Of a DNA stretch of 46,193 nt, positions 6,586-45,140 are shown one piece after another. Numbering within the stretch: position 1 is the stretch's first letter; each line of letters begins with the position of its first letter. The position numbers and the translations under genes were made by a program. Source of the DNA: Bacteroidales bacterium (GTDB lineage Bacteria > Bacteroidota > Bacteroidia > Bacteroidales > PXBB01); contig PXBB01000098.1 of the NCBI GenBank assembly GCA_003565735.1, positions 1 through 46,193 on the forward strand. The letters are read 5' to 3'. The notes beneath the pieces were generated by a model. That model had not been told where the DNA came from and ran no database searches. It was given only the letters and a program-made list of their open reading frames with translations.

Positions 6586-6590
6586 CATTT

Positions 6591-6687: not shown

Positions 6688-6718
6688 TTTTTATTTAGCT
6701 AACTAAAAAACAATAAAA

Positions 6719-17272: not shown

Positions 17273-19216
17273 TTATGGGATTTTTCGAAAAACGACACTT
17301 TCTCTGTAAGCGTTATTTAAAGACCTTATAAAATTGTTCCATTCTTCGAAATCATCAGGTTCAACCAACAGTGTATTCAGAAATATTTCTTTTGACATCA
17401 CGGCCTGGTCATTAAGTTTCTCGTATGTAATTTTAAAGCCGAACTTGTCGTTATGAAAGCTTCTGTTTTGCGGCAATTTATCAGGCATATAGCCCAAAGG
17501 GGGCTGAACCATAAAGTGTGATTTGTGCTTGTATTTGAAACTGTGTTCTACTGGTACTTGTCTTCTTTCCACATCAATAAAATCGTTTTGCAGTCTTCTT
17601 TCAAAATTCATATTTACAAACAAATTATCATCCGTTGCAGTTACATAATCTTCAATACGACAATCATACTTTATAATGAGCTCTTTTTTATTATCATCCA
17701 AGTGGCGTAAATGATAGTCATCAATATGGTACTTCCATCCACCTTTAGCGAGCAACCCTCTCACATAAGCATCCTGTCGGTTTTTACTTTTACCCAAAAG
17801 GCGTCGGGTGGCTGTTTGTTTAGGGTAGCCATGCATGCGTTTTATTCCACTGCCATGCAGATGCCTGTGGTTGTTTATAACAAAAGAAGCCGTATCTGTG
17901 GTGAGGTTCACATAGGGTTTTTCAACAGCAACCGTATCAATAACGAAGCGGTTTTCCCCCATAGTAATCAGCACTTCTTTGCCTTGCTGATTTCGGGGAT
18001 TAAGGCCATATACACCATGCACCTGAGTGGCATCAAGAAAAACAGTACGGCCCGGTTCAGGTTTATAGGCTACAATCATATGATTGTCGGTTATGGGCGT
18101 AGGTATTTGTGTGTATCTGTATGTTTTACTTCTTGTACCTATCAGAGCTAAATGGCTCTCTATTCCGGCATTGAAAAGCAGTGCATGCAGCAATACCGAC
18201 ATATCTTTACAATCGCCATAACGATTTCTGAGAACAGACAAGGGGTTGTCCGGAACAAAACCGCGCATACCATCGTTGATAGCTATGTATCTGATATTAC
18301 GCTGTACCCAGTCGTAAATATTTTGCACTTTTTGCTTTTCCGTATCCTCTTGGTGAATGATGGTTTTTAAGATATCTTCAAAAGCTTCATCTTCAATAAA
18401 GATTACATTTTCAAAAAGCGACCAATACCAGTTGTTGAGGCTGTTAAGATTTTTCAGAACCGGAACAGATGCGCCATCAATTTCATACGATTCGATGTAG
18501 TAGATTAAGTGAGGTGCATAAAAAGGTAAAGCCGGCGCATTGTTGTGTATAACCAAAGGTCTTACCTGATTTAGCTCCCAGGTGTGTATTTTGAACCGTC
18601 CTCTTTCTTCTGTTGTATGAATGATATCCCAGTTATCCGTGTTCAACAAAACGTGTTTTAATTGGACATTTTTATGGGCTTTGATACGCATGACAACTTT
18701 TTCGACAGGGAGATTACTTTGGAAATAGAAAGGAGACAATAGTCTGGGTTCTTTATATTCTTTCTGATAGGCTAAAACTGTTCTGACACCACGTCCTACA
18801 GCGGGATAAGTAAGCCGCCGCTCTTTAGAGTCGTGGTAAAAAACACCATCACGGTCGCTGGTGATGTCGCTGTAGTCGGTTACTTTTATTTTCCTATGTC
18901 CCATGCGCCGTGGCACAAGGGTGTAAGCATCCCAGTTTTTAAGAACAGAAAAGCCTGAATGGTAAACGGTATTTGAAGTAAACACCCTCGATTGTTCTGC
19001 CAGATGCAACATCTCATCATAATGGTCTTTTGTTATTTTCAAAGCGCCTCTTCTTATGTCGATAGTTACAGTTTGTTCTCTTAAAAGCCTCACTCCAAGG
19101 GCGCCGGGGTATTTTTCGGCGTAATAATTAAGCATTTCCTGAGCAGTAATATCTGATACACATAAGGCCAGAGAAAACAAAATTCCTGTCAGGTAAATAA
19201 TTGGTTTATTCTTCAT
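17273..19216 (-). CDS. DUF3857/transglutaminase-like exported protein (active-site residues intact)
   Basis: A 647-residue protein when started at 19216, where a clear signal peptide begins with MKNKPIIYLTGILF and ends near ITAQ. An upstream ATG at 19270 would add 18 residues of non-signal sequence. DUF3857 domain at about 30-260, then a transglutaminase-like cysteine-protease fold with catalytic Cys in RYGDCKDMSVLLHALL, His in DNHMIVAY and Asp in VFLDAT, all present. Such proteins probably cleave or cross-link amide bonds in the periplasm. The start overlaps the end of the MORN gene by about 11 bases, indicating translational coupling. Compared with its downstream neighbour, this copy keeps the enzyme residues. 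Confidence 0.85.
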   Translation of the reverse strand: MKNKPIIYLTGILFSLALCVSDITAQEMLNYYAEKYPGALGVRLLREQTVTIDIRRGALKITKDHYDEMLHLAEQSRVFTSNTVYHSGFSVLKNWDAYTLVPRRMGHRKIKVTDYSDITSDRDGVFYHDSKERRLTYPAVGRGVRTVLAYQKEYKEPRLLSPFYFQSNLPVEKVVMRIKAHKNVQLKHVLLNTDNWDIIHTTEERGRFKIHTWELNQVRPLVIHNNAPALPFYAPHLIYYIESYEIDGASVPVLKNLNSLNNWYWSLFENVIFIEDEAFEDILKTIIHQEDTEKQKVQNIYDWVQRNIRYIAINDGMRGFVPDNPLSVLRNRYGDCKDMSVLLHALLFNAGIESHLALIGTRSKTYRYTQIPTPITDNHMIVAYKPEPGRTVFLDATQVHGVYGLNPRNQQGKEVLITMGENRFVIDTVAVEKPYVNLTTDTASFVINNHRHLHGSGIKRMHGYPKQTATRRLLGKSKNRQDAYVRGLLAKGGWKYHIDDYHLRHLDDNKKELIIKYDCRIEDYVTATDDNLFVNMNFERRLQNDFIDVERRQVPVEHSFKYKHKSHFMVQPPLGYMPDKLPQNRSFHNDKFGFKITYEKLNDQAVMSKEIFLNTLLVEPDDFEEWNNFIRSLNNAYRESVVFRKIP

Positions 19217-22200
19217 ACTGATAATCATTCCAGTAAAATTCTTTCTTAACTTGATTATTATTTTCATCAAAGTGTGTTACCCAGCCGTTGAGATCGCCCA
19301 TCAGATACTCCATTGTTTTGAGTTGCGAACCATCGCGGCGGTAGTATTCGCATGTACCACTAAGCACACCATAATAGTAGTTGAGCACTGATTCGATTTG
19401 ACCATTATCGTAGTAGGTTTTAGCTGTTCCATGCCTTTGTCCGTTGACAAAGCTTATCTTGCTCATAAGATTACCGTTACTGTGATACATTATTTGATTG
19501 CCATGCCTGTAACCATCTCTGAAGTTTTCTTTTACCGACTTTTGCCCGTTACTGTAGTAAGCTTCAACTTGAATATTGCCGTAATGCGCTTCATATGGCT
19601 TGGTATAAGATTCGTCCATTTGCTTATACCTGTAGGACATTATGTCATCGTTTTCAAAAAGATATTCTACCATTAAAGCTCCGGTGTTATCATATAACCT
19701 GTAAGGACCTTGCCAGTTACCATCATGGTAAGTAATAGACATTCTTTTTTCATTATTTGGCCAGTACCAGTACCAAACACCTACTCTGTCATCCTGCTCA
19801 TAAACACCTTTGCGACTTATCTGATCACTGTGTTCTTCAAAATAGAAATGCCACGCGCCATGCTGCAGGCCATTTTTATATTGACCTTTGGACCTCATGT
19901 CACCATTTTTATAATAAGAAACATAAGGCCCCTCCCTTTGACCATGAAAGAAATTAAATTTGCTTTCTGTACTACCATCATTAAAAAACCATTCAGCCTC
20001 ACCTTCAAAATTTCCGCATTCTATGTTAACGCTAAAGCGTTTATTACCGTTAGGATAATTAATCCGTAGTTGCCCGTTGCCGTCTTCAAAAGTATTAGAA
20101 GAAATTGTGCGGCCTGTTGTGTCATAATAAGTAATGTTGTAAACCTTACCATCGCGCGAATCAAAGATGTTGGAAAGCAGACCGGTGGGGGAATAATTTC
20201 TTGAAGGACCATACACCTGATTATCTATGTAAAACATCTTATCTTTAAGCGAACCATCAGGATAATAAAACTTCCAGAGGCCATGCCTTTGACCGTTTTC
20301 GTACCAGCCCTCAGAAGATAAATAACCATTTCGGAACCATGTTTTAAAATACCCGTGCTTTTGACCATCCTTAAAAGGCCCTTTTTTGTATAATAGACCA
20401 AAAATGTAATAATCTTTCATAAGCCCATTTTCTTTATTATTGAGAAAGTGGTGCTTTGTTTCCTTTACGCCGTTTTTAAAATAATAGGTCCATTTTCCTG
20501 TTCTCTTACCGGAAATGATGGTGCCTTCAAAACGCTTCTCTCCGGTAGGCAGGTATCCTGTCACATTATTTGTACCACTTGATGTACGGTAGTTGGCTAT
20601 TTCCTGACCTTGTTTGTCATAGTAAATAATTCTGTTAAAAGTTTCATCACTTCCATATTCCAGATAATTCCACAATAAGCCATCATGGTCGTAAATTTTT
20701 TCCCACAAAAGTGTTCCGTTATTATACTTTCTTTCATTGGTAAGCACACTGTCCTTATCAAAAGTAAGTGTTTTACCATGCAAATCACCTTTATCGTTAA
20801 AATTTTCAATTTTATTAAGTTTTCCATCGTTAAAGAAGTAGCGCCATTCACCAACAGCAGCATTTTCTTTGGTAGTTCCTTGAGTCACAATTAAGCCTTC
20901 ATTATTAAACTCCTTATATGTGCCGTTATGCATCCCATTTTCAAAAAAAGCTCTGCTTTTGATGACGCCGTTATTGTGATAAGTAACCAAGCTGCCTTCC
21001 GGCTGCCCGTCTTTATAAAAACCTTTCTCAATAAGAGTATCTTTGTATGAAAAGTTCTTAGATACGCCATCAAGAGCACCATCTTTCACGAAAGACTTTT
21101 GATTGCGCGCACCACAATAATAATAAAACATGACATCTCCGTTATAGTTGCCATTTTCGAACTCAATTTCGGAATACACCTGTCCATTGTCGTAGAAGCT
21201 TACCACTTTACCGTGTAAAAGCCCCTCCTCATTATACTGTTCAATAATATCAATCTGGCCGTATTCATTGTACACTTTCCATTCGCCTTCGCTTTTATGA
21301 TTCTCGTTATATCTGCCTTCGAGATTCAGATTGCCATTGTTATAATAATAAATTTGCCAATAGCCTATTCTTTTATTGGGATCGTCATCAACGGCATTAC
21401 CTAAAGCTACTAAGCGCCCATCATAATACCATACCTTAAGTGCCATCTCTTCACCATCAATTTCAACAGTTCGCAGTGCTCTGTTTTTCTCAATATAGGC
21501 ATCCGTTTTATCAACAAATTCATTGATGCGGTTTTGATTGCGTATCCTTCTTTTCCATTTGTTGACCTCATCAATATGCGCTGAATTTAAGATATAATAT
21601 ACCAGAGGTTCATAAAAATTGTTTTCTTTGATAACCTGAAAGAAAGGACCGTAAAAATTCATCCAGAAATCATTATCAGATTCTTCATATTCAAATTTTT
21701 CGAGCATCAACTTTATTTGTTTAACCAGAGCGGCATCAACTTTTACAGGCGTTCTGTAGTTGGGGTTTAAGGCCACTTTAGAGTTGATAATGAAATCCAG
21801 TTCGCTGAAACTGTTTGGGGTCAGGTTTTTCGGGCCATCCCATGTTAAATCCATGGTTAAAGAGCCTTCACAGAGCCTTTCGAGCTGCAGCAGAATGTTT
21901 CTGGAAACATTTCCCTGGGGTCTGATAAGCAAATAGGTTGTCCAGCTCATCATGGCATGAGTCACATGTCCTTGTGAGGCTGCTATTTTGCCAAGCAAGT
22001 TGTGCGAATTTAAATGATAAGGGTCGAGAGCTAGTGTTTTCTTAATATAATCCAGTGATTTTTCATGTTTGTTCATGCGATAATAGGTGAGCCCTAAATT
22101 ATAGTGGAGCAAATGATTGTGCGGATACTTTTCAAGACCTTTTTTAAAGATTTTAACAGCTTTCTCAGCAAAACCCATATCATCATAGCTGCTGCCTAAT

Positions 22201-22526
22201 GCTGTATATACAAAAAAACCAAAATGCGGCTGTTTGTTCATCACTTTTTCAAAGTAGCTTATAGCTTTCTCATAATTTTGCATCTGATAATAAGTTAAAC
22301 CGGCCTCATAAAGCATCAGCAAATAATTGGTATCTGCCATATCAACCTTATAATAATACTTAAGAGCCTCTTCGTACTGCTCTTTGCCATGCATATCAAT
22401 GCCACGTCTAATCAATTCGTCACTTCTCATGAATCGCTCCTGAGCTATAGATTCAAAACATACAAATAATGTTAGTGCCAAAAGTATCTTTAAAAAATCA
22501 GTCATTGGTATTAAATTTTTAAACAT
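19206..22526 (-). CDS. Very large exported TPR + MORN-variant repeat protein
   Basis: An 1,106-residue protein with a signal peptide; cleavage is near ESIAQ. The ATG at 22505, giving MTDFLKILL, is an alternative start. Residues about 30-190 are tetratricopeptide repeats (GLTYYQMQNYEKAISYF and similar). From about 365 to the C-terminus there are roughly 30 MORN-variant repeats of about 23 residues with the pattern G-x-W-x-x-Y-x-x-NG-x, the family often labelled YwqK-like antitoxin. That label is misleading here, because there is no toxin gene and the protein is exported. It heads an operon with two DUF3857 proteins and has its own promoter. A surface or periplasmic scaffold role is inferred. 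Confidence 0.85.
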   Translation of the reverse strand: MFKNLIPMTDFLKILLALTLFVCFESIAQERFMRSDELIRRGIDMHGKEQYEEALKYYYKVDMADTNYLLMLYEAGLTYYQMQNYEKAISYFEKVMNKQPHFGFFVYTALGSSYDDMGFAEKAVKIFKKGLEKYPHNHLLHYNLGLTYYRMNKHEKSLDYIKKTLALDPYHLNSHNLLGKIAASQGHVTHAMMSWTTYLLIRPQGNVSRNILLQLERLCEGSLTMDLTWDGPKNLTPNSFSELDFIINSKVALNPNYRTPVKVDAALVKQIKLMLEKFEYEESDNDFWMNFYGPFFQVIKENNFYEPLVYYILNSAHIDEVNKWKRRIRNQNRINEFVDKTDAYIEKNRALRTVEIDGEEMALKVWYYDGRLVALGNAVDDDPNKRIGYWQIYYYNNGNLNLEGRYNENHKSEGEWKVYNEYGQIDIIEQYNEEGLLHGKVVSFYDNGQVYSEIEFENGNYNGDVMFYYYCGARNQKSFVKDGALDGVSKNFSYKDTLIEKGFYKDGQPEGSLVTYHNNGVIKSRAFFENGMHNGTYKEFNNEGLIVTQGTTKENAAVGEWRYFFNDGKLNKIENFNDKGDLHGKTLTFDKDSVLTNERKYNNGTLLWEKIYDHDGLLWNYLEYGSDETFNRIIYYDKQGQEIANYRTSSGTNNVTGYLPTGEKRFEGTIISGKRTGKWTYYFKNGVKETKHHFLNNKENGLMKDYYIFGLLYKKGPFKDGQKHGYFKTWFRNGYLSSEGWYENGQRHGLWKFYYPDGSLKDKMFYIDNQVYGPSRNYSPTGLLSNIFDSRDGKVYNITYYDTTGRTISSNTFEDGNGQLRINYPNGNKRFSVNIECGNFEGEAEWFFNDGSTESKFNFFHGQREGPYVSYYKNGDMRSKGQYKNGLQHGAWHFYFEEHSDQISRKGVYEQDDRVGVWYWYWPNNEKRMSITYHDGNWQGPYRLYDNTGALMVEYLFENDDIMSYRYKQMDESYTKPYEAHYGNIQVEAYYSNGQKSVKENFRDGYRHGNQIMYHSNGNLMSKISFVNGQRHGTAKTYYDNGQIESVLNYYYGVLSGTCEYYRRDGSQLKTMEYLMGDLNGWVTHFDENNNQVKKEFYWNDYQYEE

Positions 22527-24209: not shown

Positions 24210-26987
24210 ATGAAGAAGTTATCATATTTAAATACACTAAGCCACCATCAGATTGAAAACATGTATGCCAAGTACCGCACCGATCCTGATTCAGTAGAAA
24301 AAAGCTGGCGTCACTTTTTTGATGGTTTTGACATAGCTCTGACAAAATTTAATCCAACAGATGCAAAAGACTTTTCATCAAAAGAGTTTAAGGTAATTAA
24401 CTTAATTAATGCTTACCGCGAGCGTGGACATTTATTTACAAAAACCAATCCTGTAAGGCGCAGGCGCACATATACACCCGATTTAGACATGGCCAATTTT
24501 GGTCTTGAAGAAACAGACATTGACCAAACATTTGCTGCTGCTACAGAAATTGGTCTGCCACCTTCAAGCCTAAGAACCATCATACAACATCTGAAAGATA
24601 CCTATTGTCGCTCATTTGCTATAGAATACATGTACATTCGGGACCCGTACAAACTCAACTGGCTAAAGGAGCGCATGGAAAAGAGCAAGAACACTTTAAG
24701 CTTCGAGCCACAGGTACAGCTTAACATTTACAAATCCTTGTATAAAGCGGTTTCTTTTGAAAAGTTTATTCACAAGCGCTTCCCCGGTCAGAAGCGTTTT
24801 TCTCTGGAAGGTGCCGAGGCGCTTATTCCTGCTCTTGACGCTATTGTTTTAGAAGGCTCTGACAGTGGCAGTAAAGAATTTATTATTGGCATGGCGCACC
24901 GAGGCAGGCTTAATGTTCTGGCCAATATTTTAAAAAAACCTTACAGCAGTATTTTCAGCGAATTTGCCGGCAGTGCATACGCAGACCACACCTTGTTGGG
25001 CGATGTTAAATACCATCTGGGCTACACACATGAGTTTACCGCAAAAAACAATAAAGAAGTTAAAATCAGCCTTTGCCCTAACCCTTCGCATCTGGAAGCT
25101 GTAAATAGTGTTGTAGAAGGACTGGTGCGTGCCAATATAGATATCGACTATGAGGGCGATAACAGCCGTATTTTTCCAATTCTTATACATGGTGATGCCT
25201 CTATAGCAGCACAAGGCGTTGTGTACGAAGTCCTGCAAATGGCTCAGCTGAACGGTTATAAGACAGGCGGCACCATACACCTTATCATCAACAATCAACT
25301 CGGCTTTACAACCAACTATCTCGACGGACGCAGCAGTGTTTATTGCACCGATGTTGCCAAAACCATTCAGTCGCCCATTATTCACGTCAATGGAGATGAT
25401 GTGGAAGCCGTTATTTATGCCATATTTTTAGCTGTGGCATACCGCCAAAAATTTAAAACGGATGTTTTTATTGATCTGCTTTGCTATCGCAAATACGGCC
25501 ACAACGAAGGTGATGAGCCACGCTTTACACAACCTTTACTTTACAAAGCCATTGAAAAACACCCTGACCCGGCTACTATTTATCTGGATAAGCTCAACAG
25601 TCAAGGTCATAATCATAGCGAGAAAATAAAGGAAATAGAGGCTAAGGTTAAAGAAAAGTATGAAAGCTGTTTTAACACATCAAAAGATTTTAAAGAGGGC
25701 TTCATAACTAATTTTCTTGAGAAAAGGTGGCAAGGTTTTGATTACGATAAGTATAAAAATTTTGAACCCGACACCCGGGTTTCTGCTGAAAAACTCAAAA
25801 AGCTGGCTGAATCCCTATGCCAGACACCCGATGGCAAGAAACTCTTTCACAAGTCATTAAAGCTTCTTGGTGCACGTTACAATATGGTTTTTAAAGAAAA
25901 CAAAATGGACTGGGGTATGGTAGAAAACCTTTGTTATGCCACCTTGCTTGAAGAGGGTTATAATGTACGTATCAGTGGTCAGGACTGTGAGAGAGGGACT
26001 TTTTCGCACCGCCATGCTGTTTTCACCATTGAAGATGCTGAAGAAAAATACAGCCCTCTTAAAGCTATGGGTAAGCACAAAAGACAATTCCAAATATACA
26101 ATTCATTGTTATCTGAATATGGTGTTTTGGGCTTTGAGTATGGTTATGCCATGGGAAGCCCCGGCACATTAACTATTTGGGAGGCACAGTTTGGAGATTT
26201 CAGCAACGTTGCTCAGGTCATTTTTGACCAGTTTATTTTTACGGCTGAGGAAAAATGGCGTTTGATGAACGGTCTGGTTTTATTTTTGCCACATGCTTAT
26301 GAAGGTCAGGGGCCCGAACATTCGAGCGCACGTATTGAAAGGGTTCTTAACTATTGTGTTGACAAAAATATTATAGCAGCCAACCTGAGCACACCCTCAA
26401 ATATGTTTCATCTGCTCCGTTTGCAGATGCACAACAAATACCGTAAGCCCCTCATCGTTTTTACCCCCAAAAGCCTCTTGCGCCACCCTGATTGCACGGC
26501 CACGCTTGAAGATTTATCTGAAGGTTCTTTCCTTCCTGTAATATACGATAACAATGTAGATACGGATGCTGTGGAGCGTGTGATTTTTTGCAGTGGAAAA
26601 ATTTACTATGACCTTGAAGCATACCGTCAACAACATGCATATCACAGCACAACCATAGTACGTTTAGAGCAATTGTATCCTTTTCCCTATGCCGAAGTAA
26701 AAGCATCACTGGAAAATTTTAAAAAAGCCGGTGAGGTTCTTTGGGTACAAGAAGAACCCGAAAATATGGGCGCTTGGCATTATTTTTCTAATAAAATGAA
26801 CCATACCAAACTCAGGCTCGTGTCGCGACCTGCCAGTGCCAGCCCTGCAACAGGCGCCAGCAAATTTCATTTTATGCAACAAGAAAAAATAATGTCCAAA
26901 GCTTTTAATGGCTGTGATTGTGAAAATGTTTGCAGCAATTGCAAAATTCAATGTGTTACCAGGGAAATAAAAAAGTATTTTAATTAA
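24210..26987 (+). CDS. sucA: 2-oxoglutarate dehydrogenase E1 component
   Basis: Thiamine-diphosphate enzyme that decarboxylates 2-oxoglutarate and passes the succinyl group to the E2 lipoyl domain. About 925 residues from the ATG at 24210. A TTG ten codons upstream overlaps the promoter and is rejected. Family marks include the N-terminal E2-binding segment (YAKYRTDPDSVEKSWRHFFDGF), GMAHRGRLNVLANIL, HGDASIAAQGVVYE, NNQLGFTT, KYGHNEGDEP and SSARIERVL. The C-terminus is unusual. After the normal SRPASASPATG segment comes a tail with five cysteines (C-x-C-x3-C-x2-C-x3-C), which could bind a metal. sucB follows 91 bases later; the E3 gene is not in the window. Confidence 0.96.
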   Translation: MKKLSYLNTLSHHQIENMYAKYRTDPDSVEKSWRHFFDGFDIALTKFNPTDAKDFSSKEFKVINLINAYRERGHLFTKTNPVRRRRTYTPDLDMANFGLEETDIDQTFAAATEIGLPPSSLRTIIQHLKDTYCRSFAIEYMYIRDPYKLNWLKERMEKSKNTLSFEPQVQLNIYKSLYKAVSFEKFIHKRFPGQKRFSLEGAEALIPALDAIVLEGSDSGSKEFIIGMAHRGRLNVLANILKKPYSSIFSEFAGSAYADHTLLGDVKYHLGYTHEFTAKNNKEVKISLCPNPSHLEAVNSVVEGLVRANIDIDYEGDNSRIFPILIHGDASIAAQGVVYEVLQMAQLNGYKTGGTIHLIINNQLGFTTNYLDGRSSVYCTDVAKTIQSPIIHVNGDDVEAVIYAIFLAVAYRQKFKTDVFIDLLCYRKYGHNEGDEPRFTQPLLYKAIEKHPDPATIYLDKLNSQGHNHSEKIKEIEAKVKEKYESCFNTSKDFKEGFITNFLEKRWQGFDYDKYKNFEPDTRVSAEKLKKLAESLCQTPDGKKLFHKSLKLLGARYNMVFKENKMDWGMVENLCYATLLEEGYNVRISGQDCERGTFSHRHAVFTIEDAEEKYSPLKAMGKHKRQFQIYNSLLSEYGVLGFEYGYAMGSPGTLTIWEAQFGDFSNVAQVIFDQFIFTAEEKWRLMNGLVLFLPHAYEGQGPEHSSARIERVLNYCVDKNIIAANLSTPSNMFHLLRLQMHNKYRKPLIVFTPKSLLRHPDCTATLEDLSEGSFLPVIYDNNVDTDAVERVIFCSGKIYYDLEAYRQQHAYHSTTIVRLEQLYPFPYAEVKASLENFKKAGEVLWVQEEPENMGAWHYFSNKMNHTKLRLVSRPASASPATGASKFHFMQQEKIMSKAFNGCDCENVCSNCKIQCVTREIKKYFN

Positions 26988-27078: not shown

Positions 27079-28284
27079 ATGGGGATAAAAGTAAGCGTTC
27101 CATCTATTGGTGAGTCTGTTACAGAAGCAGAAATTTCACAGTGGCTTGTTGAGGATGGTCAATATGTAGAAAAGGATGATGAAATTGCAGAAATTGATTC
27201 TGAAAAAGCAACTATCAGTATCAGTGCAGATGCATCAGGTCGTATAAAAATTCTTGTCAAGGCAGGCGAAGTTGTTAAAATAGGTGCTGTTATTGCCGAA
27301 ATAGAAAGTGGCGAACAAAGCGTAGAGCCATCAAAAGCAAGCGAAGAAAAAGCTACCCATAAGCCGAAAGCTTCTGAAAAAGAAACCCCTCACGACCCTA
27401 AGCCTGATACTGAAACAAAAACAGAAAAACAGCTTCCTAAAGATTCTGTTAATGCCACACCCTTGGCAAAACAAATGATGGTATTAGAAAACATAGACCC
27501 ACAAAATATTAATAAGCAAGCTTCCGACAAGATAAAACGCAAAGAAGTTGAAAGCTATATCCAAAATCAAAAGATGCGCCAAAGCACGACCAGCAAGATG
27601 AGCATGTTGCGCCGCAAGTTATCAGAGCGCCTGGTAGCTGTTAAAAATCAAACGGCCATGCTCACTACTTTTAATGAGGTTGATATGTCGGCTATTGATG
27701 AGTTGCGTAACAAGCACCAGGACACTTTTAAAAGCAAGCACAATGTCAAACTGGGCTTTATGTCCTTTTTTGTGCGTGCTTCAACTTTGGCACTCAAAGA
27801 GTTCCCTCAGGTTAATGCTGCTATTGACGACAATAAGATCATAACATACGATTATGCAGACATTTCCATTGCAGTGAGCACCGACAAGGGACTTATGGTT
27901 CCTGTGATACGTAATGCCGAGTTGCTTTCATTAAGCGAGATAGAAAAAAAACTTTTAGAACTGTCAGAAAAAGCAAGAAATAATAGTATAAGCATAGACG
28001 ACATGACCGGTGGCACTTTCACCATAACAAATGGTGGTGTTTTTGGTTCCATGTTGTCAACGCCTATAATCAACCCGCCACAAAGCGCCATACTGGGTAT
28101 GCATACTATTAAAGACAGGGCTGTTGTCGTAAACGGACAAATCGTTGTCCGGCCTATGATGTACCTGGCCTTATCCTACGACCACCGCATTATTGACGGC
28201 AAAGAGTCCGTTGGTTTTATAGTAAGTGTTAAAAATTTACTTGAAACCCCATCCGAGATGCTACAGGATGGTGATTTAACTTAA
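27079..28284 (+). CDS. sucB: Dihydrolipoyllysine succinyltransferase (2-oxoglutarate dehydrogenase E2)
   Basis: Core acyltransferase of the 2-oxoglutarate dehydrogenase complex, 401 residues. An N-terminal lipoyl domain (1-77) has the lipoyl lysine K43 in [10 protein letters not shown] charged, Lys/Glu/Pro-rich linker (78-125) leads to a short E3-binding domain (about 127-165, starting NATPLAKQM). The catalytic domain (about 175-401) ends with [11 protein letters not shown], where H369 and D373 are the CoA-transfer residues. Placement directly after sucA and the SucB-like catalytic signature favour the succinyltransferase over pyruvate or branched-chain E2. The flippase gene begins 45 bases downstream but is functionally unrelated. 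Confidence 0.95.
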
Positions 28285-30900: not shown

Positions 30901-32262
30901 ATGCATGTACACCGGAGATTCGTATCCTTTTTCAATAAAAGTGCTGTTTTGTTAACAGCAACATGGCTTTTAATGTCGCTAACGCTAAAGGCACAAGTAG
31001 TAACAAAATACTGGGAAAGCAACAACCAAAAGAAAAGCAAAGGCAGTATAGTTGAAGGCCAAAAAGATGGCTTATGGATCACATGGTATGAAAATGGTCA
31101 AAAGATGGCGGAGGGCTATTATAAGAACGGTGAGAAAACGGGCAAGTGGCTGTATTGGTATGATGATGGTTTAAAAAAGGGAAAAATCCATATTGAGAAC
31201 GGTCTTAACCAGTCGTGGTTTCCTAACGGACAACTTGAGAGACGTGGCCATGTTACAAACGGCAAGCCCGAAGGCGAGTGGAAAGTATGGTATCCCAGTG
31301 GTAAAACACGTGAAATTCAGAACTATAAAAATGGACAGTTGCATGGTACTGTTAAAGGTTTTTTCCGCAGTGGGCACAAAGAGTTTGTAAAAATATTTGA
31401 AAACGGTTTTAAGAATGGTTATGCTCAGTGGTGGTATGACGGAGGCCCCTTGGAAATGGAGGGCAAGCTGGTTGATGATCTCCAGGACAGTATCTGGATA
31501 TTCTACCACCGCAATGGTCAAAAAGGGAGTAAAGGTTTTTTTGTAAACGGCTTACAAGAAGGACACTGGGTTTACTGGTACGAAACCGGCGAGAAATGGC
31601 GGGAAGGGCCCTTTGAAAAAGGCAGAAGAAATGGCCTGTGGACAACCTATTTTGAGAGTGGCCGCAAATTTCATGAGGGGCATTTTGTAAATGGTAAAGA
31701 AGAAGGCCTCTGGACCTCATGGTACGAAAATGGCAATGTAAGAGACAAAGGCACTTATAAAAAAGGAGCTATGCATGGTAAGTGGACAGGTTTTTTTGAA
31801 GAAGGCAACAAAAGGTATGAAAACCATTTCAAGGATGGCGCGATGGATGGTGCTTCTACTTTGTGGTATCCTAACGGCCAGGTTATGCGTAAAGCTCATT
31901 ACAAAGGCGGTTTGCGCCACGGCCCATACGAAGAGTTTCTTGCTGATGGTACCGTAACGCAAAAAGGCAATTACGAAGGGCATGTAAAACACGGCAACTG
32001 GACCTTTTATGATGAAAGAGGCTTTAAAATTAATGAACAAAACTATGTGGAAGGACGCCCCGAAGGACGCTTTGTCAGATACTACCGTTTTAACAGAAAA
32101 CAAATGGAAGGTTACTACAGAAACGGCTTAAGACATAGAAAATGGACCTACTGGGATCAAAATGGCGAAATTTTATATCAGGCCGTTTTTAGAGATGGTT
32201 ACCTCAGACGCGAAATCGTTTCGCAAACAGACAAGAAAAATTTACCCTATGATTTCAGATAA
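30901..32262 (+). CDS. Exported MORN-variant repeat protein
   Basis: A 453-residue protein with a signal peptide (about 1-33, ending LKAQ). From residue 50 to the end it has about 16 MORN-variant repeats of about 23 residues, each following G-x-W-x-x-WYENGQ-x-x-x-G-x-Y-x-NG. Predicted all-beta, with regularly spaced Trp and Tyr. It is similar in repeat type to the 1,106-residue protein at 19206-22526 but lacks the TPR region. It begins two bases after the prenyl synthase stop. It carries the same YwqK antitoxin-like label in databases, but export and the absence of a toxin make a toxin-antitoxin role unlikely. Function unknown. Confidence 0.85.
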   Translation: MHVHRRFVSFFNKSAVLLTATWLLMSLTLKAQVVTKYWESNNQKKSKGSIVEGQKDGLWITWYENGQKMAEGYYKNGEKTGKWLYWYDDGLKKGKIHIENGLNQSWFPNGQLERRGHVTNGKPEGEWKVWYPSGKTREIQNYKNGQLHGTVKGFFRSGHKEFVKIFENGFKNGYAQWWYDGGPLEMEGKLVDDLQDSIWIFYHRNGQKGSKGFFVNGLQEGHWVYWYETGEKWREGPFEKGRRNGLWTTYFESGRKFHEGHFVNGKEEGLWTSWYENGNVRDKGTYKKGAMHGKWTGFFEEGNKRYENHFKDGAMDGASTLWYPNGQVMRKAHYKGGLRHGPYEEFLADGTVTQKGNYEGHVKHGNWTFYDERGFKINEQNYVEGRPEGRFVRYYRFNRKQMEGYYRNGLRHRKWTYWDQNGEILYQAVFRDGYLRREIVSQTDKKNLPYDFR

Positions 32263-38396: not shown

Positions 38397-38527
38397 TATA
38401 AGATTTATAAATAGTGCATCCGGGGGCTTTTATGTATTTACGAATTTAGTAAAACTAAAGCCGCCGAGTGTCAGGTTTTTATGGCAGCAGTAAGCTGGTA
38501 CAGCATAAAGAAATTATAAATACAAAA

Positions 38528-38619
38528 AGAGAGAATGGTGCTGGTGTGCCGGCCGGTCTTCAAAACCGGTAGCAGGTGGATAACACCAACTGTGGCAGGT
38601 TCGATTCCTGCTCTCTCTG
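38528..38619 (+). tRNA. selC: tRNA-Sec (UCA)
   Basis: Selenocysteine tRNA that reads UGA. The 92-base gene has a D stem GGTGC/GTGCC (38537-38541 with 38546-38550) closing a 4-base loop, an anticodon stem CCGGT/ACCGG, and a 7-base loop with anticodon TCA at 38560-38562. A long variable arm (38571-38594) and a 5-bp T stem GCAGG/CCTGC with loop TTCGATT follow. The acceptor stem has 7 clean pairs (38528-38534 with 38612-38618) and discriminator G at 38619, the base SerRS needs. The CCA is not encoded. The small D loop and long variable arm exclude a UGA suppressor of tRNA-Trp. selA follows 40 bases later. Confidence 0.95.
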
Positions 38620-38659
38620 CTAAAAAAAACAAGATGAAGTTGTATTATAAACACTTGTT

Positions 38660-40063
38660 ATGAAATCAAAACAGGAGGTTCTCAAAAACCTTCCCGCTGT
38701 TGATAAGTTGCTCGCATTACCCCAAATCAGCGAGCTTACAGCCGGTTACGGTAAAGCCCTGGTGGCTCATGCAATCCGCCAGTCTTTAAGTTATTACAGA
38801 GCCCGAATTATTAAAGGAGCTCCTGCCCCCGAAGTATGCGATATTGTTAAAAACATCAATGCGGTTTTGAAAAAGCTGCAGGCCAAAAGTTTGAAAAAAA
38901 CCATTAATGCCACAGGCATCATAATACATACAAACCTGGGGCGTGCTCCTTTTGGAGAAGCGTTCCTTAAAAACAGTTACGAAGTCCTTGACAACTATTG
39001 CAACCTCGAATTTGACCTTGAAAAAGGTCAAAGAGGCAGCCGCAACAGACATGTAGCTGAGATGATAAAGCTGATGACTGCGGCTGAAGACGTCCTTATT
39101 GTCAATAATGCTGCCGCTGCCGTTATGCTTATCCTGCGTACTTTTGCCAAAAACAAAGAGGTGCTGGTATCGCGCGGCGAGTTAATAGAAATTGGCGGTT
39201 CCTTTCGTATTCCGGATATTATGGAAGCCTCTGATTGCATCATGCGGGAAGTAGGCACCACCAATAAAACTAAAAAGAGCGACTATGAAAAAGCCATAAC
39301 AGCACATACGGCCCTTCTTTTTAAGGCACACAAATCTAACTACGTTATAAAAGGTTTTACAGAGGAAGTAAGCCTGGACGATCTGGTCGCTTTAGGCCAA
39401 ACACACCACCTGCCCGTTGTATTCGATTTAGGCTCCGGACTGCTTTACAAAATCAACCACCCTGCACTGAAAGACGAACCCAATGTAAAGGAAACACTGG
39501 CTAAAGGTATCGACCTGGTTTGTTTCAGCGGCGACAAACTGCTGGGCGGGCCACAGGCCGGCATCATTGCAGGACGACAGCAGTTTATTGATCTCTTGAA
39601 AAAAGAACCCATGCTCAGAGCATTAAGGGTCTGCAAAACCACACTTGCTTTACTGGAAAATGCGTGCAGGTATTATCTTGATGGTGAAACTTTTAAAGAG
39701 CAGATTCTTTTTCATAAACTACTGAACACCAAACCTGTTGATGTTAAAAGAAGAGCCGAAAAGCTTAAAAAAATACTGGATAAATCGCATATCCAATCTA
39801 CCATTGAAGCATCTGAAGGACAGCCCGGCGGGGGTACTTTGCCCGACACTTACTTAAAAAGTTATGCTGTTGTACTCACCAAAAAAGCGGCTAACAAGCA
39901 ACGCGAAGCTTTTGCCGAAAACATGTACCATGAACTTTTGAAACAGCCGATACCTGTTCTTGCAGTACTTAAAAGAGGCCACATATTTTTGGATATGCTT
40001 ACGGTAGCAGATAGCGAAATTGAAAGTATAGCATCGGCTGTAAAAAATATTTTAAAACCATAA
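38660..40063 (+). CDS. selA: L-seryl-tRNA(Sec) selenium transferase
   Basis: PLP enzyme that converts Ser-tRNA(Sec) to Sec-tRNA(Sec) using selenophosphate. The 467-residue length matches bacterial SelA. The N-terminal tRNA-binding domain is about 1-70, followed by NATGIIIHTNLGRAPF (83-98), RGSRNRHVAEM near 125-135, and the PLP lysine K293 in CFSGDKLLGGPQAG. The order tRNA-Sec, selA, selB is the classical arrangement. There is no selenocysteine codon inside the gene. selB begins 34 bases downstream. Confidence 0.97.
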   Translation: MKSKQEVLKNLPAVDKLLALPQISELTAGYGKALVAHAIRQSLSYYRARIIKGAPAPEVCDIVKNINAVLKKLQAKSLKKTINATGIIIHTNLGRAPFGEAFLKNSYEVLDNYCNLEFDLEKGQRGSRNRHVAEMIKLMTAAEDVLIVNNAAAAVMLILRTFAKNKEVLVSRGELIEIGGSFRIPDIMEASDCIMREVGTTNKTKKSDYEKAITAHTALLFKAHKSNYVIKGFTEEVSLDDLVALGQTHHLPVVFDLGSGLLYKINHPALKDEPNVKETLAKGIDLVCFSGDKLLGGPQAGIIAGRQQFIDLLKKEPMLRALRVCKTTLALLENACRYYLDGETFKEQILFHKLLNTKPVDVKRRAEKLKKILDKSHIQSTIEASEGQPGGGTLPDTYLKSYAVVLTKKAANKQREAFAENMYHELLKQPIPVLAVLKRGHIFLDMLTVADSEIESIASAVKNILKP

Positions 40064-40097
40064 TATTACAACACATTTCAAACATAGCAGCAAAAGA

Positions 40098-42080
40098 ATG
40101 TCACATGTTATAATAGGAACAGCCGGCCACGTTGACCATGGCAAAACAACATTGGTAAAAGCCTTGACGAATATAGACTGCGATACGCATAAAGAAGAAA
40201 AAGAAAGGGGCATCACCATCAATCTGGGTTTTTCACACCTGGAGTTGCCGGGAGGTCTTTCTGCCGGTATTGTGGACGTGCCGGGCCATAAGGATTTTAT
40301 CAATACCATGGTGTCGGGGGCTTGCGGCATACATATGGTGCTCTTTGTCATAGCTGCCGACAGTGGCATTATGCCGCAAACCAAAGAACATGGTCATATT
40401 ATTACGGCTTTGGGCATTGAAAATGGTATAGTAGCACTTACCAAAACAGACCTGGTAGATGAAGAGCTGGTTGAAATAGCCAAACTGGAAATCATGGAGT
40501 TTTTGGAGGGCACCTCCCTCAAAGAGACAGAAATAGTAGCCGTATCGTCTCATACAGGAGCCGGTATTGACAAGCTCACCAAAGCCATAGAAAAAAAATT
40601 ACTAAAGATAAACCATGCAGAAAAAAGCCCGGTTTTTCGCATGTATATTGACAGGATTTTTACGGTAAAAGGTTTTGGAAGCGTTGTTACAGGATCAGTG
40701 CTGGGAGGCGAAGTCAGCACCGGCAGTGAGTTGCTGCTACTCCCCTGCAGCAATCAAAGATTAAGAGTGCGTGCATTGGAAAGGCATGGCCAAGCCGTTC
40801 AAAAAATTGAGGCCGGCGACAGAGCCGCTATAAACCTTATTGGCCTTAAAAAAGAAGATTTTCAGAGAGGCATGTTGCTGTCCGATAAAAATTTAGAGCC
40901 TACCCTTATGGTTGATGCAGTCATTAAACTCTTTGAAGATGCCCCGCCCCTCTCAGTCTGGTCGCACCTCACTTTTATTTCCGGCACTTTTGAGTGTCAG
41001 GCACGCATGCACTGCCTCGACAAAGACAACATATACCCCGGCGAAAGTGCTATTGTTCAACTGCACCTGCACAAAGCTGCTGTTCTTCTCAACAAAGACA
41101 AGTTTATCATCAGGTCTTCCTCCGCCGACCTTAGTCTGGGTGGTGGCACCATCATTGACGCCCGTCCCCTGCATCATAGAAAAAGAACTGAAAAACTGCT
41201 TAAACATCTTAAAAGCTTAGCACAAAACACCCTGCAGCAGGATAATATGGCCGGACTAATCAGTGTAGAATTAAAAAAAGACTTCCGCCCTTTCAGCATA
41301 CAGGAAATAGCCGAAAAATTAAACACCACCACCGGTAAAATCTATGATATTATTGGCAGCAACGCACAAGATTTTGCCAGCTGCCAAACTGCTGACACCA
41401 CACTCCTTACCGACAGCTCTTATGAAGAAGCATTGAAAAAAAAGCTGCTTAAAATTATTGATGCCCACCACAAAGCACATCCCATACTGCCAAAAGGCTT
41501 AAATACTGCTGAAATGACCGGAAAAATGACTTTTGCAAGCTTTAGATATGCCAAAAACTATACAGGCTACCTGTTAAAAAATCTGGAAGCTGAAAACTTG
41601 ATAAAAAACCAGAATGACAGCTGGATGCTAAACAGCTTTAAGCCGGCTCTGGATAAAAAAAGACAGGAAGCAGTCAGCTGGCTGGAAAGTACGCTTAAAA
41701 GCTACGACAAAGAAAAGCCTGTCTGGACAGAAATTGCAGAAGCGGCAGCACACAAACACATAACCCAAAGCGATCTTAGAATGTATTTCGACTATCTGGC
41801 TGCCAGTGGTAAAATACGTTATGTACAAAATGATTTTATGCACACAGACATTATCAATAAGTATAAAAGTATTTTTCTTGAACAACTTATTTCAATGCCT
41901 GATGGTATGAGCATTTCAACTTATAAAGAGCTGCTTGACGGCACCAAGCGTTTTCGTTCGCTGCTGGCAGAAATACTGGAGGCTGCCGGCCTTATCAAAG
42001 CCCATCGCAGTCCCGAAACAGAAACAATATATTATATAACAGAAAAAGGCAAAAATAATATCCATGACAGTTTACCTTGA
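40098..42080 (+). CDS. selB: Selenocysteine-specific elongation factor SelB
   Basis: GTPase that delivers Sec-tRNA(Sec) to UGA codons followed by a SECIS hairpin. 660 residues: EF-Tu-like G domain (1-175) with GHVDHGKT at 10-17, ERGITINLGF (switch region), DVPGHKDF near 56-63 and TKTD near 115-118. Domains II and III run to about 350. Four winged-helix units (about 370-655) bind the SECIS RNA, the last ending in LLAEILEAAGLI...YYITEKG. The C-terminal units are what separate SelB from EF-Tu and SelB-like archaeal factors. The end overlaps the next gene by 17 bases, so translation is coupled. Confidence 0.97.
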   Translation: MSHVIIGTAGHVDHGKTTLVKALTNIDCDTHKEEKERGITINLGFSHLELPGGLSAGIVDVPGHKDFINTMVSGACGIHMVLFVIAADSGIMPQTKEHGHIITALGIENGIVALTKTDLVDEELVEIAKLEIMEFLEGTSLKETEIVAVSSHTGAGIDKLTKAIEKKLLKINHAEKSPVFRMYIDRIFTVKGFGSVVTGSVLGGEVSTGSELLLLPCSNQRLRVRALERHGQAVQKIEAGDRAAINLIGLKKEDFQRGMLLSDKNLEPTLMVDAVIKLFEDAPPLSVWSHLTFISGTFECQARMHCLDKDNIYPGESAIVQLHLHKAAVLLNKDKFIIRSSSADLSLGGGTIIDARPLHHRKRTEKLLKHLKSLAQNTLQQDNMAGLISVELKKDFRPFSIQEIAEKLNTTTGKIYDIIGSNAQDFASCQTADTTLLTDSSYEEALKKKLLKIIDAHHKAHPILPKGLNTAEMTGKMTFASFRYAKNYTGYLLKNLEAENLIKNQNDSWMLNSFKPALDKKRQEAVSWLESTLKSYDKEKPVWTEIAEAAAHKHITQSDLRMYFDYLAASGKIRYVQNDFMHTDIINKYKSIFLEQLISMPDGMSISTYKELLDGTKRFRSLLAEILEAAGLIKAHRSPETETIYYITEKGKNNIHDSLP

Positions 42081-43218
42081 CAATGCCACCACTTCATGGC
42101 CAAAGCCTTTAGTTGTTGTTGAAGCCATGAGCAAAGCACTGAACGATTTCCCGGGCAATGCCGGCAGATCGGCGCACAGCATGTCGCTGCATGCAGCCCG
42201 CTTGCTGTTTGAAACACGCGAATACTTGGCAGAAATGTTTCATGTGCCTCAATCCGATAATGTCATTTTTACCGCCAATGCAACATACGCCGCAAATTTT
42301 GCCTTGTACGGGATGCTCAAAAAAGGGGACCATGTGATAACGACAAGCCTTGAACACAATGCTGTCATGCGTCCTCTTAAAGATTTGGAAAGTAAGCGTA
42401 CCATCGGGCTCACTGTCTTACCACTTAGCGCTGATAAGCCCCTCTGCTTGCCACTTTTAAAAGAGGCCATCACGCCACAAACGCGCATGTTGTGCATGAC
42501 CCATGGCTCCAATGTCAACGGCACTTTGTTGTCTTTGAAAGAAGCCGGCAAGCTGTGCCATCAAAACAACATACTCTTTTTTGTTGATGCCTCTCAAACC
42601 GCAGGTATTGTGCCCATAAACATGAACGATATGCATATAGACCTTATGGTCTTTTCGGGACATAAGAAAATGATGGGCCCCTCCGGCATTGGTGTTCTGT
42701 GTATTAATGGAAAGCACCCGCTAAGGCCTCTTATACGTGGTGGTACAGGAAGCCTGTCTGAACATTTTGCGCAGCCCGATTTTCTCCCCGACGCGCTAGA
42801 GGCAGGCACGCCTAACATACCCGGCATTGCCGGACTCTATGCCGCAGCAAAATACATTATGCAGACAGGTATCAAAAACATTTATGCCAAAACCAAACAA
42901 TTGGCTGACCACCTCATAAGTCAGCTGCAGCACATGGAAGAGCTTACAATATACGAACCTCTATGGGCCGGCAGTCATTTACCTATAGTAGCCTTTAACA
43001 TAAAAAATATGACATGCAGTTATGTCGCAGAGCAACTCGACCAAAACTTCGGTATCATGTGCCGCTCTGGTCTGCATTGTGCACCACAGGCTCACAAAGC
43101 ACTGGGGAGCTTCCCCCAGGGATCTGTCAGATGCAGCCCCGGGATGTTCAACACTTTTGAAGATATTACTTACACTATAAACGCATTAAAAACTATTATT
43201 CATAATGAAAACCATTGA
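42064..43218 (+). CDS. Class-V aminotransferase: cysteine desulfurase / selenocysteine lyase-like
   Basis: PLP enzyme of 384 residues belonging to the short-N-terminus subgroup that begins YLDNATTSWPKP (about 4-15). The PLP lysine is K201 in SGHKKMMGPSG; H98 lies in SLEHNAVM. The active-site cysteine loop is CRSGLHCAPQAH, with C339 at the position of the catalytic Cys of SufS/CsdB and an extra C333. Such enzymes release sulfur from cysteine or selenium from selenocysteine. It overlaps selB by 17 bases and yedF by 14 bases, inside the selenium operon. A role in mobilising selenium for SelD is therefore likely, but the substrate preference cannot be read from sequence. Confidence 0.88.
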   Translation: MTVYLDNATTSWPKPLVVVEAMSKALNDFPGNAGRSAHSMSLHAARLLFETREYLAEMFHVPQSDNVIFTANATYAANFALYGMLKKGDHVITTSLEHNAVMRPLKDLESKRTIGLTVLPLSADKPLCLPLLKEAITPQTRMLCMTHGSNVNGTLLSLKEAGKLCHQNNILFFVDASQTAGIVPINMNDMHIDLMVFSGHKKMMGPSGIGVLCINGKHPLRPLIRGGTGSLSEHFAQPDFLPDALEAGTPNIPGIAGLYAAAKYIMQTGIKNIYAKTKQLADHLISQLQHMEELTIYEPLWAGSHLPIVAFNIKNMTCSYVAEQLDQNFGIMCRSGLHCAPQAHKALGSFPQGSVRCSPGMFNTFEDITYTINALKTIIHNENH

Positions 43219-43813
43219 TGCCAGAGGGCAAATATGTCCCAAACCCCTGATAATGACAAAAAAAGCTTTGAAAAATGCCAGGCAAAACGAATCCCTGCAA
43301 ATCATCCTCGATAATGAAACAGCTGTTCAGAATGTCACGCGCTTTCTGCAGGATAACGGGCAGGAGGTATCAGTACATAAGAAAGACCATTTACACTATA
43401 TTGCCGTCAACGCTAAGGAAGAGCTGCCCGACGGTATAGAAGCTGAAGCTTATTGCGACACAGGAACAACAAAAAATGAAAGCCCTGTCATGCTTTTTAA
43501 GCAAAATAAAATGGGGCATGGCCCCGAAGCGCTTGGCACAATACTTATGACTGCTTTTATCAACACTTTGCCCGAAATCACACTAAAGCCACAAAAACTC
43601 ATTTTTGTCAATTCCGGTATTTTTTTAACACTAACAGACAGTGACACACTGGAGGCTCTTAAAACACTTGAAAAAAGTGGCACGGACATATTGGTCTGCG
43701 GTACCTGCCTTGACTTTTTCAATAAAAAAAACCAACTGGCCGTAGGCAAAGTATCTAATATGCATGACATCTTAGAGTATTTGACTTTGGCGGCAAAAGT
43801 CATATATCCCTGA
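43205..43813 (+). CDS. yedF: YedF, selenium metabolism protein (TusA + DsrE-like domains)
   Basis: A 202-residue two-domain protein. The N-terminal TusA/SirA-type domain (1-70) has the CPKP motif at 11-14, where C11 is the sulfur- or selenium-carrying cysteine of the family. The C-terminal DsrE/DsrF-like domain (about 93-200) has a second cysteine pair, C165 and C168, in VCGTCLDFF. This architecture is the one named selenium metabolism protein YedF and co-occurs with selD. It overlaps the desulfurase gene by 14 bases. It probably accepts Se as a perselenide and passes it on. That role is inferred from family and context. Confidence 0.88.
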   Translation: MKTIDARGQICPKPLIMTKKALKNARQNESLQIILDNETAVQNVTRFLQDNGQEVSVHKKDHLHYIAVNAKEELPDGIEAEAYCDTGTTKNESPVMLFKQNKMGHGPEALGTILMTAFINTLPEITLKPQKLIFVNSGIFLTLTDSDTLEALKTLEKSGTDILVCGTCLDFFNKKNQLAVGKVSNMHDILEYLTLAAKVIYP

Positions 43814-43857
43814 TCAGCTTATACCCCTTCAACAAAATCAATATTTAGTTAACATAT

Positions 43858-44106
43858 ATGAGCAACCAAAACAAAATACTGTTTTCATATTTTATCTTTC
43901 CTTCAATTCATACTGTTTTAAAAGCAGAAAAGCTGCTGAAAAGCCATGCCGTCAGTCATACTATTGTACCTGTACCAAAGGCCATCAGCAGCAACTGCGG
44001 TGTCGCTGTCAGAGTTCAACCTGACGAAGCTATTGTGTTGCAGGCCACAGCTCTTTTAGATAAACATCAATTAAAATACAAACACTACCAAAATATTAAG
44101 GCATGA
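43858..44106 (+). CDS. DUF3343 (putative Se/S carrier-like) protein
   Basis: An 82-residue soluble protein with a ferredoxin-like beta-alpha-beta pattern, no signal peptide and one conserved cysteine, C47, in ISSNCGVAVR. This is the DUF3343 pattern, described in Pfam as a putative Se/S carrier-like family, often encoded next to yedF and selD. Its stop overlaps the selD start by four bases (ATGA), so the two are translationally coupled. With yedF immediately upstream, a handover of selenium or sulfur between the two and SelD is a reasonable hypothesis. No experimental role can be claimed from sequence. Confidence 0.85.
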   Translation: MSNQNKILFSYFIFPSIHTVLKAEKLLKSHAVSHTIVPVPKAISSNCGVAVRVQPDEAIVLQATALLDKHQLKYKHYQNIKA

Positions 44107-45140
44107 AAACCTTTGATTTACTCAGCACAACAGCCACCGGAGGATGTGCAGCCAAGCTGCCTGCAAAAGCTCTTAATGAAGCTTTATCCGAGGTGCCTAA
44201 AATCCGTGACTCCCGCATACTGGTTGACATAGAAAACCATGATGATGCCGGCGTTTATAAGCTAAACGAGACCACGGCCCTGATACATACGACTGATTTT
44301 TTTCCGCCGGTTTGTTCAGACCCTTACAGCTATGGCGCCATAGCTGCCGCCAATGCCATGAGCGATGTATATGCCATGGGTGGCGAAGTGCTTAACGTTT
44401 TGAATATTGTTGCTTTCCCTGCTCAATTGCCTCTAAGCATCCTCAAGGATATCTTAAAAGGTGGTATTGAGAAAGTTATGGAGGCCGGCGCTGTTGTTAT
44501 GGGCGGGCATACCATAGAGGACAACACCATCAAGTACGGCATGGCAGTAACCGGCAGCGTACATCCCAATAAAATTATTACCAATACCGCCGCACAGCCC
44601 TCAGATGTGCTGTTGCTTACCAAACCCTTAGGGACCGGTATTATCATGGCAGGTCACAAAATTGGTGAAGCCGGTGAATCTCAACTTCAGAATGTTATTG
44701 ACAGCATGACACAATTGAACAAAGGAGCAGCGGAAGCCATGCAGAAATACCACGTCAAATCAGCCACCGATGTTACAGGCTTCGGCTTGTTGGGCCATGC
44801 ACTTAAAATGGCTATAGGGAGTGGTGTGACCATGGAAATACAAGCCCACAAAATACCTTTCTTTGAAGGCTGTTTGCAGTTAAGCGAATTAGGCTGCTTG
44901 CCCGGTGCTTGTTTTCGCAATTCAGATTATGTAAAACCTGATTGCCATTACGAAAAAAACATAGCTTACGAAATGAAAATGCTGCTCAACGATGCACAAA
45001 CCTCTGGAGGAATGCTTATCAGCAGCCCCCCCGAAGCAGTATATGAGCTTATCAGAGAACTCATAAATGCCGGCTACCCACACACCACTCCTATTGGCAA
45101 AGTTATCAGAAAAAAAACCACACCATTAATAATAACCTAA
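44103..45140 (+). CDS. selD: Selenide, water dikinase (selenophosphate synthetase)
   Basis: Makes selenophosphate, the Se donor for SelA, from selenide and ATP. 345 residues. The catalytic cysteine and lysine are C15 and K18 in TGGCAAKLPAKAL, so this SelD uses Cys, not Sec, at the active position. The ATP/Mg part shows HDDAGVYKL near 41-49, TDFFPPVCSDPYSYGAIAAA near 64-83, a glycine-rich MGGHTIEDN near 148-156 and TDVTGFGLLGHAL near 220-232. It ends the selenium operon. A hairpin terminator follows at 45199. Confidence 0.97.
   Translation: MKTFDLLSTTATGGCAAKLPAKALNEALSEVPKIRDSRILVDIENHDDAGVYKLNETTALIHTTDFFPPVCSDPYSYGAIAAANAMSDVYAMGGEVLNVLNIVAFPAQLPLSILKDILKGGIEKVMEAGAVVMGGHTIEDNTIKYGMAVTGSVHPNKIITNTAAQPSDVLLLTKPLGTGIIMAGHKIGEAGESQLQNVIDSMTQLNKGAAEAMQKYHVKSATDVTGFGLLGHALKMAIGSGVTMEIQAHKIPFFEGCLQLSELGCLPGACFRNSDYVKPDCHYEKNIAYEMKMLLNDAQTSGGMLISSPPEAVYELIRELINAGYPHTTPIGKVIRKKTTPLIIT

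Follow-up and report, generated by a model that had tools for sequence, protein, structure and literature searches.

A lineage-specific four-cysteine module, probably metal-binding, at the C-terminus of 2-oxoglutarate dehydrogenase E1 in Bacteroidales

In a 46,193-nucleotide stretch of a Bacteroidales genome (GenBank assembly GCA_003565735.1, contig PXBB01000098.1; below, "the window" means this whole stretch), the E1 component of 2-oxoglutarate dehydrogenase, SucA, continues past the end of the known E1 fold into a short tail that carries a set of cysteines. The complete four-cysteine set was found in 108 of the 116 genomes of the order (here, Bacteroidales in the broad sense) that were read directly, representing 49 families, and is absent in the other 8. 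This pattern of conservation suggests that the tail is a lineage-specific module on a core enzyme and that it probably binds a metal. On balance, we favor a compact four-thiolate site on the E1 C-terminus, of either the iron–sulfur (Fe-S) or the zinc kind; the narrower proposal, that E1 in the Bacteroidales has its own minimal [2Fe-2S] cluster there, draws on analogy with other proteins and is put forward tentatively.

The C-terminal tail of SucA

Up to the tail, SucA of the window is a typical E1—the Pfam domains 2-oxogl_dehyd_N, E1_dh, Transket_pyr and OxoGdeHyase_C cover its full length, it scores 1179 bits against the equivalog model NF006914 of NCBIfam (cut-off 764), the gene for E2 adjoins it, and an E3 is present in its own genome (TIGR01350, 568.6 bits against a cut-off of 408.8). 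The closest solved structure is that of E. coli SucA (2jgd). Matches to Pfam PF16870 and to NCBIfam NF006914, NF008907 and TIGR00239 end at residue 898–900, and solved E1 chains of the family match up to 899–900, with the exception of 8i0k, whose best stretch stops at 723. The protein ends in ...SRPASASPATGASKFHFMQQEKIMSKAFNGCDCENVCSNCKIQCVTREIKKYFN, and the part past the family-model end reads GCDCENVCSNCKIQCVTREIKKYFN, that is, C902-x-C904-x3-C908-x2-C911-x3-C915. The cysteine codons begin at 26913, 26919, 26931, 26940 and 26952, which bears out the five-cysteine spacing that a first-pass annotation of the window had read from the sequence. The interval that it gave for the tail, 26890 to 26987, does hold an extension but starts too early, within the last normal helix; the extension itself spans 26910 to 26984. 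The features concerned are as follows.

24210 to 26987, forward strand: sucA, 2-oxoglutarate dehydrogenase E1, 925 amino acids (ATG at 24210, TAA at 26985 to 26987)
26859 to 26909, forward strand: last conserved E1 helix, residues 884–900, and family-model end (ends of profile and chain matches; AlphaFold2 helix 884–900)
26910 to 26984, forward strand: C-terminal tail, residues 901–925, predicted four-cysteine knuckle and terminal helix (alignment, AlphaFold2)
26913 to 26921, forward strand: first cysteine pair of the core, C902-x-C904 (seen in 108 of the 116 order genomes read; 4 of these 108 have C-x2-C instead)
26931 to 26933, forward strand: C908, fifth cysteine, lineage-specific (6 of 108 tail-bearing genomes)
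26940 to 26954, forward strand: C911-x3-C915, second core cysteine pair (between them residue 913, Ile in the window and either Met or Leu in 99 of 108)

Conservation within the order

We compared the tail at two depths. A set of 60 relatives, the own genome included, gave 28 with a match, of which 27 were taken as SucA (the other, L028, is a distant E1-like match of 27% identity and was not counted), and the tail cysteines stand in frame in 26 of these 27. A survey of 393 order genomes gave 157 with a SucA match, 149 of them running through the cysteines and 8 stopping before; for 106 of the 149 the DNA letters themselves were read, and for the other 43 the call was made solely from where the match ends. 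The 116 genomes read directly are these 106, two from the relatives set, and the 8 without a tail. The first-pass annotation would have given up its claim had the cysteines been found in no relatives or had the assembly contained a frameshift near 26890; the set recurs and the frame is intact, and the same counts exclude chance or frameshift as the source of the tail. That the tail might be a non-functional quirk of the lineage or an assembly artifact would fit its absence from some lineages, but conservation across the order, together with the agreement of isolates and metagenome-assembled genomes (MAGs), makes this exceedingly improbable.

The core unit has four cysteines rather than five. 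The spacing C-x-C-x6-C-x3-C holds in 104 of the 108 tail-bearing genomes, and C-x2-C-x6-C-x3-C in the remaining 4, all from family f151, whereas C908 appears only in families f1 (that of the window), f32 and f13; the four-cysteine part of the original observation is thus order-wide and its five-cysteine form lineage-specific. These 108 sequences were chosen by a pattern that requires four cysteines, so that their invariance in this set is by selection. As a check on this circularity, the only order loci failing the pattern proved to be the 8 tail-less ones, and no partial set was seen among the order genomes read, except for a CTC remnant in one tail-less gene (L093).

Between the core cysteines, the 108 aligned tails vary, with an entropy of 2.2–3.4 bits, falling to 1.4 at residue 913. 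A full-length alignment of 23 tail-bearing SucA sequences gave the four core cysteines as the only invariant cysteine columns, the next best being kept in 22 of 23. Another cysteine of the window protein, C762 (26493 to 26495), lies in the segment HPxCxSxLxDL and is kept in 20 of the 23 sequences; it may be unrelated to the tail. The distance from the fourth core cysteine to the protein end ranges from 2 to 32 residues across the 108 sequences, and because some proteins end 2 residues past this cysteine, we take the cysteine unit to be the conserved part. The basic helix that the first-pass annotation placed after the cysteines, while also drawn by AlphaFold2, therefore lies outside the conserved unit.

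Distribution and evolutionary history

Outside the order, no tail was found in the 29 loci that we read, the best-scoring among the 321 genomes, our own counted, that gave a SucA match when 392 genomes of the phylum were surveyed. The other non-order genomes were judged from match ends among the matches listed, about half of the total; here, matches reaching the position of the last cysteine run through stop codons, with the exception of one genome (G435, locus L036), which on direct reading has no cysteine at the tail positions. The expectation that E1 normally ends with no such cluster was thus borne out by the 29 non-order loci read and fails inside the order.

Within the order, the tail-less SucA genes come from families f127 (five genomes), f13, f16 and f20 (one each), and no remnant of the tail was seen downstream of the stop codon in any of the eight. 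A quick maximum-likelihood tree, built from 69 sequences, puts those of the tail-less order genomes at four separate positions; parsimony assigns 4 changes to the tail, of which well-supported branches force at least 2. The deep forks of this tree are weak, with the order's two main groups and the class-level outgroup meeting at an unresolved fork. One gain near the base of the order followed by several losses is the simplest reading of this pattern, not a proven one.

To see carriers under names, we also scanned named genomes. The window protein alone confirmed nothing, and a profile confirmed 127 loci, of which the best 80 were kept; this profile was built from the tail itself and so shows carriers, not frequency. 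The tail is intact in 79 of these best 80, the remaining one (L211) being left unresolved by the pattern. Most carry labels of uncultured organisms (Bacteroidales, Bacteroidetes/Bacteroidota, Bacteroides sp., Marinilabiliales, Salinivirgaceae), and the cultured carriers are Saccharicrinis aurantiacus HQYD1, Ancylomarina salipaludis, A. euxinus and Ancylomarina sp. DW003 (L195, L215, L229 and L236). Two labels lie off the order: L185 (Chlorobiota), which the tree puts among the carriers of the tail, and L181 (a MAG under the name Chitinophaga pinensis), which was not placed in it. Both are probably mislabeled bins. The window itself holds a Bacteroidales small signal recognition particle RNA at 6584 to 6691 (Rfam RF04183, 95 bits), consistent with the order; together with the named carriers, this RNA is our ground for naming the order Bacteroidales.

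Predicted structure and profile searches

AlphaFold2 was run on the C-terminal region with 108 sequences (mean pLDDT 87.6, with 69 and 77 in two blocks over most of the tail) and on the full-length E1 with 31 sequences (mean 80.9, with 61–73 in the tail). Both runs drew two helices joined by a knuckle of some 13 residues, the second helix being the terminal one (884–900 and 914–924 in the full-length run), such that the CxC pair would follow one helix and the CxxxC pair would lead into the next. A Foldseek search with the C-terminal region returned E1 proteins of this same family in all 50 matches listed (TM 0.74–0.76, E 2e-10 to 2e-9).

Searched against 21 genomes, a profile of the tail matched SucA and nothing else below E = 0.01 (7 matches), and the weaker matches, at 0.03 and up, look like chance; the idea that the tail is common to other proteins was rejected, since none was found in these genomes. 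Neither the 32 tails searched against Pfam nor the tail profile searched against the PDB gave a significant match to a zinc or Fe-S family, so no Pfam zinc-finger family claims the tail. The best zinc-finger family was MYND (E = 0.021, 1 of 32 tails), the lowest E among non-E1 families belonged to DUF1619_N (0.0044, 2 of 32 tails), and the only PDB match of the tail profile was the zinc finger protein 2ma7 (E = 0.36, not significant).

Respiration and the partners of E1

Two further explanations of the tail, aerobic respiration and a missing E3, were checked in 71 order genomes chosen by hand (44 tail-bearing, 8 tail-less and 19 without SucA). COX1 exceeded its cut-off in 29 of 44, 5 of 8 and 3 of 19 of these, respectively, and was not found in the own genome, which is 84% complete. 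Respiration was rejected as the explanation of the tail, because COX1 goes with having SucA and not with the tail. A missing E3 was likewise rejected: lipoamide dehydrogenase exceeded its cut-off in all 52 SucA-bearing genomes, for which reason the complex is presumably complete.

These counts bear on a metal-free thiol switch, in which two cysteine pairs would form disulfides on oxidation and thereby inhibit or protect E1. CxC and CxxxC pairs are able to form disulfides, 2-oxoglutarate dehydrogenase is a known oxidant target, and an oxygen reductase (COX1) is present in those 29 carriers. One pair is usually enough for such a switch, yet all four cysteines are kept and lost together, and the tail is retained in the 15 of 44 carriers where COX1 was not found; we consider a thiol switch quite improbable.

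A second alternative arises from the neighboring gene, which encodes the E2 partner.

27079 to 28284, forward strand: sucB, the gene after sucA, for the E2 succinyltransferase (its lipoyl and catalytic domains are recognized, its E3-binding domain is not)
27451 to 27570, forward strand: peripheral-subunit (E3-)binding region of E2 in a degenerate form that lacks the GTGxxGR loop (E2 comparison)

The tail might be a docking site that contacts E2, E3 or a regulator and that evolved together with the change in the E3-binding region of E2 in this order. The GTGxxGR loop is absent from all order E2 sequences compared, tail-bearing and tail-less (one, L074, being incomplete), and present in 19 of 22 outside the order; similarly, PF02817 was recognized in 14 of 38 order E2 sequences (38 chosen of 104; best E 2.3e-05) versus 22 of 22 outside (best E 4.5e-15). 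Protein docking on this E1 also has a precedent in OdhI of actinobacteria, although the contacts described in the part of that source that we draw on are at OdhA residues 480–805, away from the C-terminal end (PMC10415282). Against docking, the tail is variable apart from its cysteines, and the altered E2 region is shared by all 8 tail-less order genomes, so that the E2 change and the tail are not tightly linked. The idea that the tail compensates for the altered E2 is weakened by these sequence comparisons, and docking is, in our view, an unlikely explanation. The first-pass annotation had offered a metal or redox switch or a contact site; of these, metal is suggested by the conservation pattern, a redox switch is conceivable, and a contact site has only indirect hints.

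A candidate metal site

The case for metal ligands is one of pattern: the cysteines are kept amid variable neighbors, they are gained and lost as a set, and CxC and CxxC are interchangeable, the change in f151 being one that metal ligands should tolerate. In the arrangement we propose, the tail would most simply have been added once near the base of the order, C902 and C904 would follow the last E1 helix, and C911 and C915 would lead into the short terminal helix, the four together holding one metal center that pins the C-terminal end of E1. Such a center might stabilize or modulate the E1 C-terminal domain, with the likely consequence that E1 activity or assembly would respond to oxygen or iron.

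The same arrangement could serve as a structural zinc knuckle, in which a single Zn(II), ligated by the four cysteines, would cap the C-terminal helix without any redox role; whatever likelihood zinc has is counted within that of a metal site of either kind. Four-cysteine sites of cytosolic bacterial proteins are often zinc-binding, the conservation and the CxC/CxxC exchange fit zinc equally well, and the sole PDB match (2ma7) and the weak MYND match, insignificant as the former is, are to zinc proteins. Ribbons and knuckles, however, mostly use CxxC pairs, the pairing of CxC with CxxxC is unusual, and no zinc-family match is significant; taken by itself, a zinc knuckle is possible, if somewhat doubtful. 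We lean slightly, by a modest margin, toward Fe-S over zinc, because CDGSH proteins and some ferrochelatase (HemH) insertions of the order have such a layout, a CxC with Cys-x3/4-Cys (or His) following within about 10 residues. We found hemH in 6 of the 14 order genomes looked at. In two of these genes, L257 (G041) and L255, whose genome G638 is tail-less, the insertion has the form CxC-x10-C-x4-C (more closely, CxC-x10-[FL]C-x4-C), and in L260 (G007) it has the form C-x4-C-x10-C-x4-C.

Several observations weigh against a metal site, and against the Fe-S comparison in particular. The tail has no significant match to any zinc or Fe-S family, the AlphaFold2 confidence in the knuckle is moderate in both runs, and tail and aerobic respiration do not go together (COX1 in 29 of 44 carriers versus 5 of 8 tail-less genomes). 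Eight order genomes manage with a SucA that lacks the tail, from which it follows that the tail is not essential to catalysis. As for the ferrochelatases, 3 of the 6 have CxC-x10-C with no close fourth cysteine, and ligation there may differ, while L255, one of the two best likenesses, comes from a genome without the tail. The x6 spacing of the tail differs both from the x8 of CDGSH and from the x10 of HemH. As for the aromatic residue before the third core cysteine (residue 910), which strengthens the resemblance, only 52 of 108 tails have Tyr there, and the window has Asn.

Significance and other features of the window

A four-cysteine module kept and lost as a unit would imply that a large, mostly uncultured group of Bacteroidota builds or controls a core enzyme differently, and the module stays invisible in annotation, whose family models end just ahead of it. 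Were the metal an Fe-S cluster, it would link oxygen or iron directly to flux through the tricarboxylic acid cycle, a responsive handle in an order that has both oxygen-respiring and apparently non-respiring members. To our knowledge, E1 of 2-oxoglutarate dehydrogenase has no metal beyond that of thiamine diphosphate, and a [2Fe-2S] tail would be the first Fe-S center on the E1 of any 2-oxoacid dehydrogenase complex that we know of. Our literature search, with most subscription papers and bioRxiv preprints outside its scope, found nothing among the papers listed on a cysteine tail or metal site of 2-oxoglutarate dehydrogenase.

Elsewhere, the window contains a selenocysteine cluster at 38525 to 45140, with a tRNA-Sec followed by open reading frames (ORFs) that we read from the sequence as selA, selB, a class V aminotransferase, a TusA/YedF-like protein and selD, the last with Cys, not Sec, near its N-terminus. 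Two large ORFs, at 19206 to 22526 and 30901 to 32262, are rich in "G.W..YY..NG" segments and look MORN-like by eye; the former has TPR-like repeats at its start.

Comparison with known systems

The E1 proteins of E. coli (2jgd, 6vef) and M. smegmatis (2xta) resemble SucA of the window in whole fold and domain order, with sucB as the next gene, and differ at the C-terminus, where the known models and chains reach at most residue 900 and have no counterpart to the cysteine tail. Zinc knuckles and treble clefs share with the tail four cysteines in a short stretch and differ from it in pair spacing, the pairs of the tail being CxC and CxxxC; none of these families matches it significantly.

CDGSH (mitoNEET) proteins (PF09360) share with it a CxC and, after it, a Cys-x3-ligand step, the whole fitting into about 15 residues. 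According to the part of PMC3174974 that we draw on, their [2Fe-2S] consensus is CxC-x8-C-x3-H, and cluster binding may persist with Cys in place of His. The tail differs in having x6 for x8 and Cys for His as the fourth ligand, and it offers no counterpart to the conserved S/T, P, D and G of the motif or to the beta-sandwich. The full motif, CxC-x2-(S/T)-x3-P-hydrophobic-C-D-G-(S/T/A)-H, does not occur in the tail, and PF09360 is not among the matches of the 32 tails.

The ferrochelatases offer the other likeness. As described in the portion of PMC8529089 used here, their [2Fe-2S] motifs occur as a C-terminal extension or as an insertion, the insertion mainly in Bacteroidetes and shown experimentally to be a [2Fe-2S] motif for that of M. 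xanthus; the same source describes CXC groupings as belonging to other [2Fe-2S] clusters and calls the role of the cluster still unknown. The tail differs in sitting on SucA, another enzyme, and at its end rather than internally, as in these bacteria, and in its spacing, with the fourth cysteine missing in half of the ferrochelatases compared; the two are alike in layout alone, and no sequence homology between them was shown. In both, a cluster-type cysteine set sits patchily across lineages on a housekeeping enzyme, that of SucA being a shorter form of the layout, and a housekeeping enzyme that gains a cluster which many lineages lack has a good precedent in ferrochelatase.

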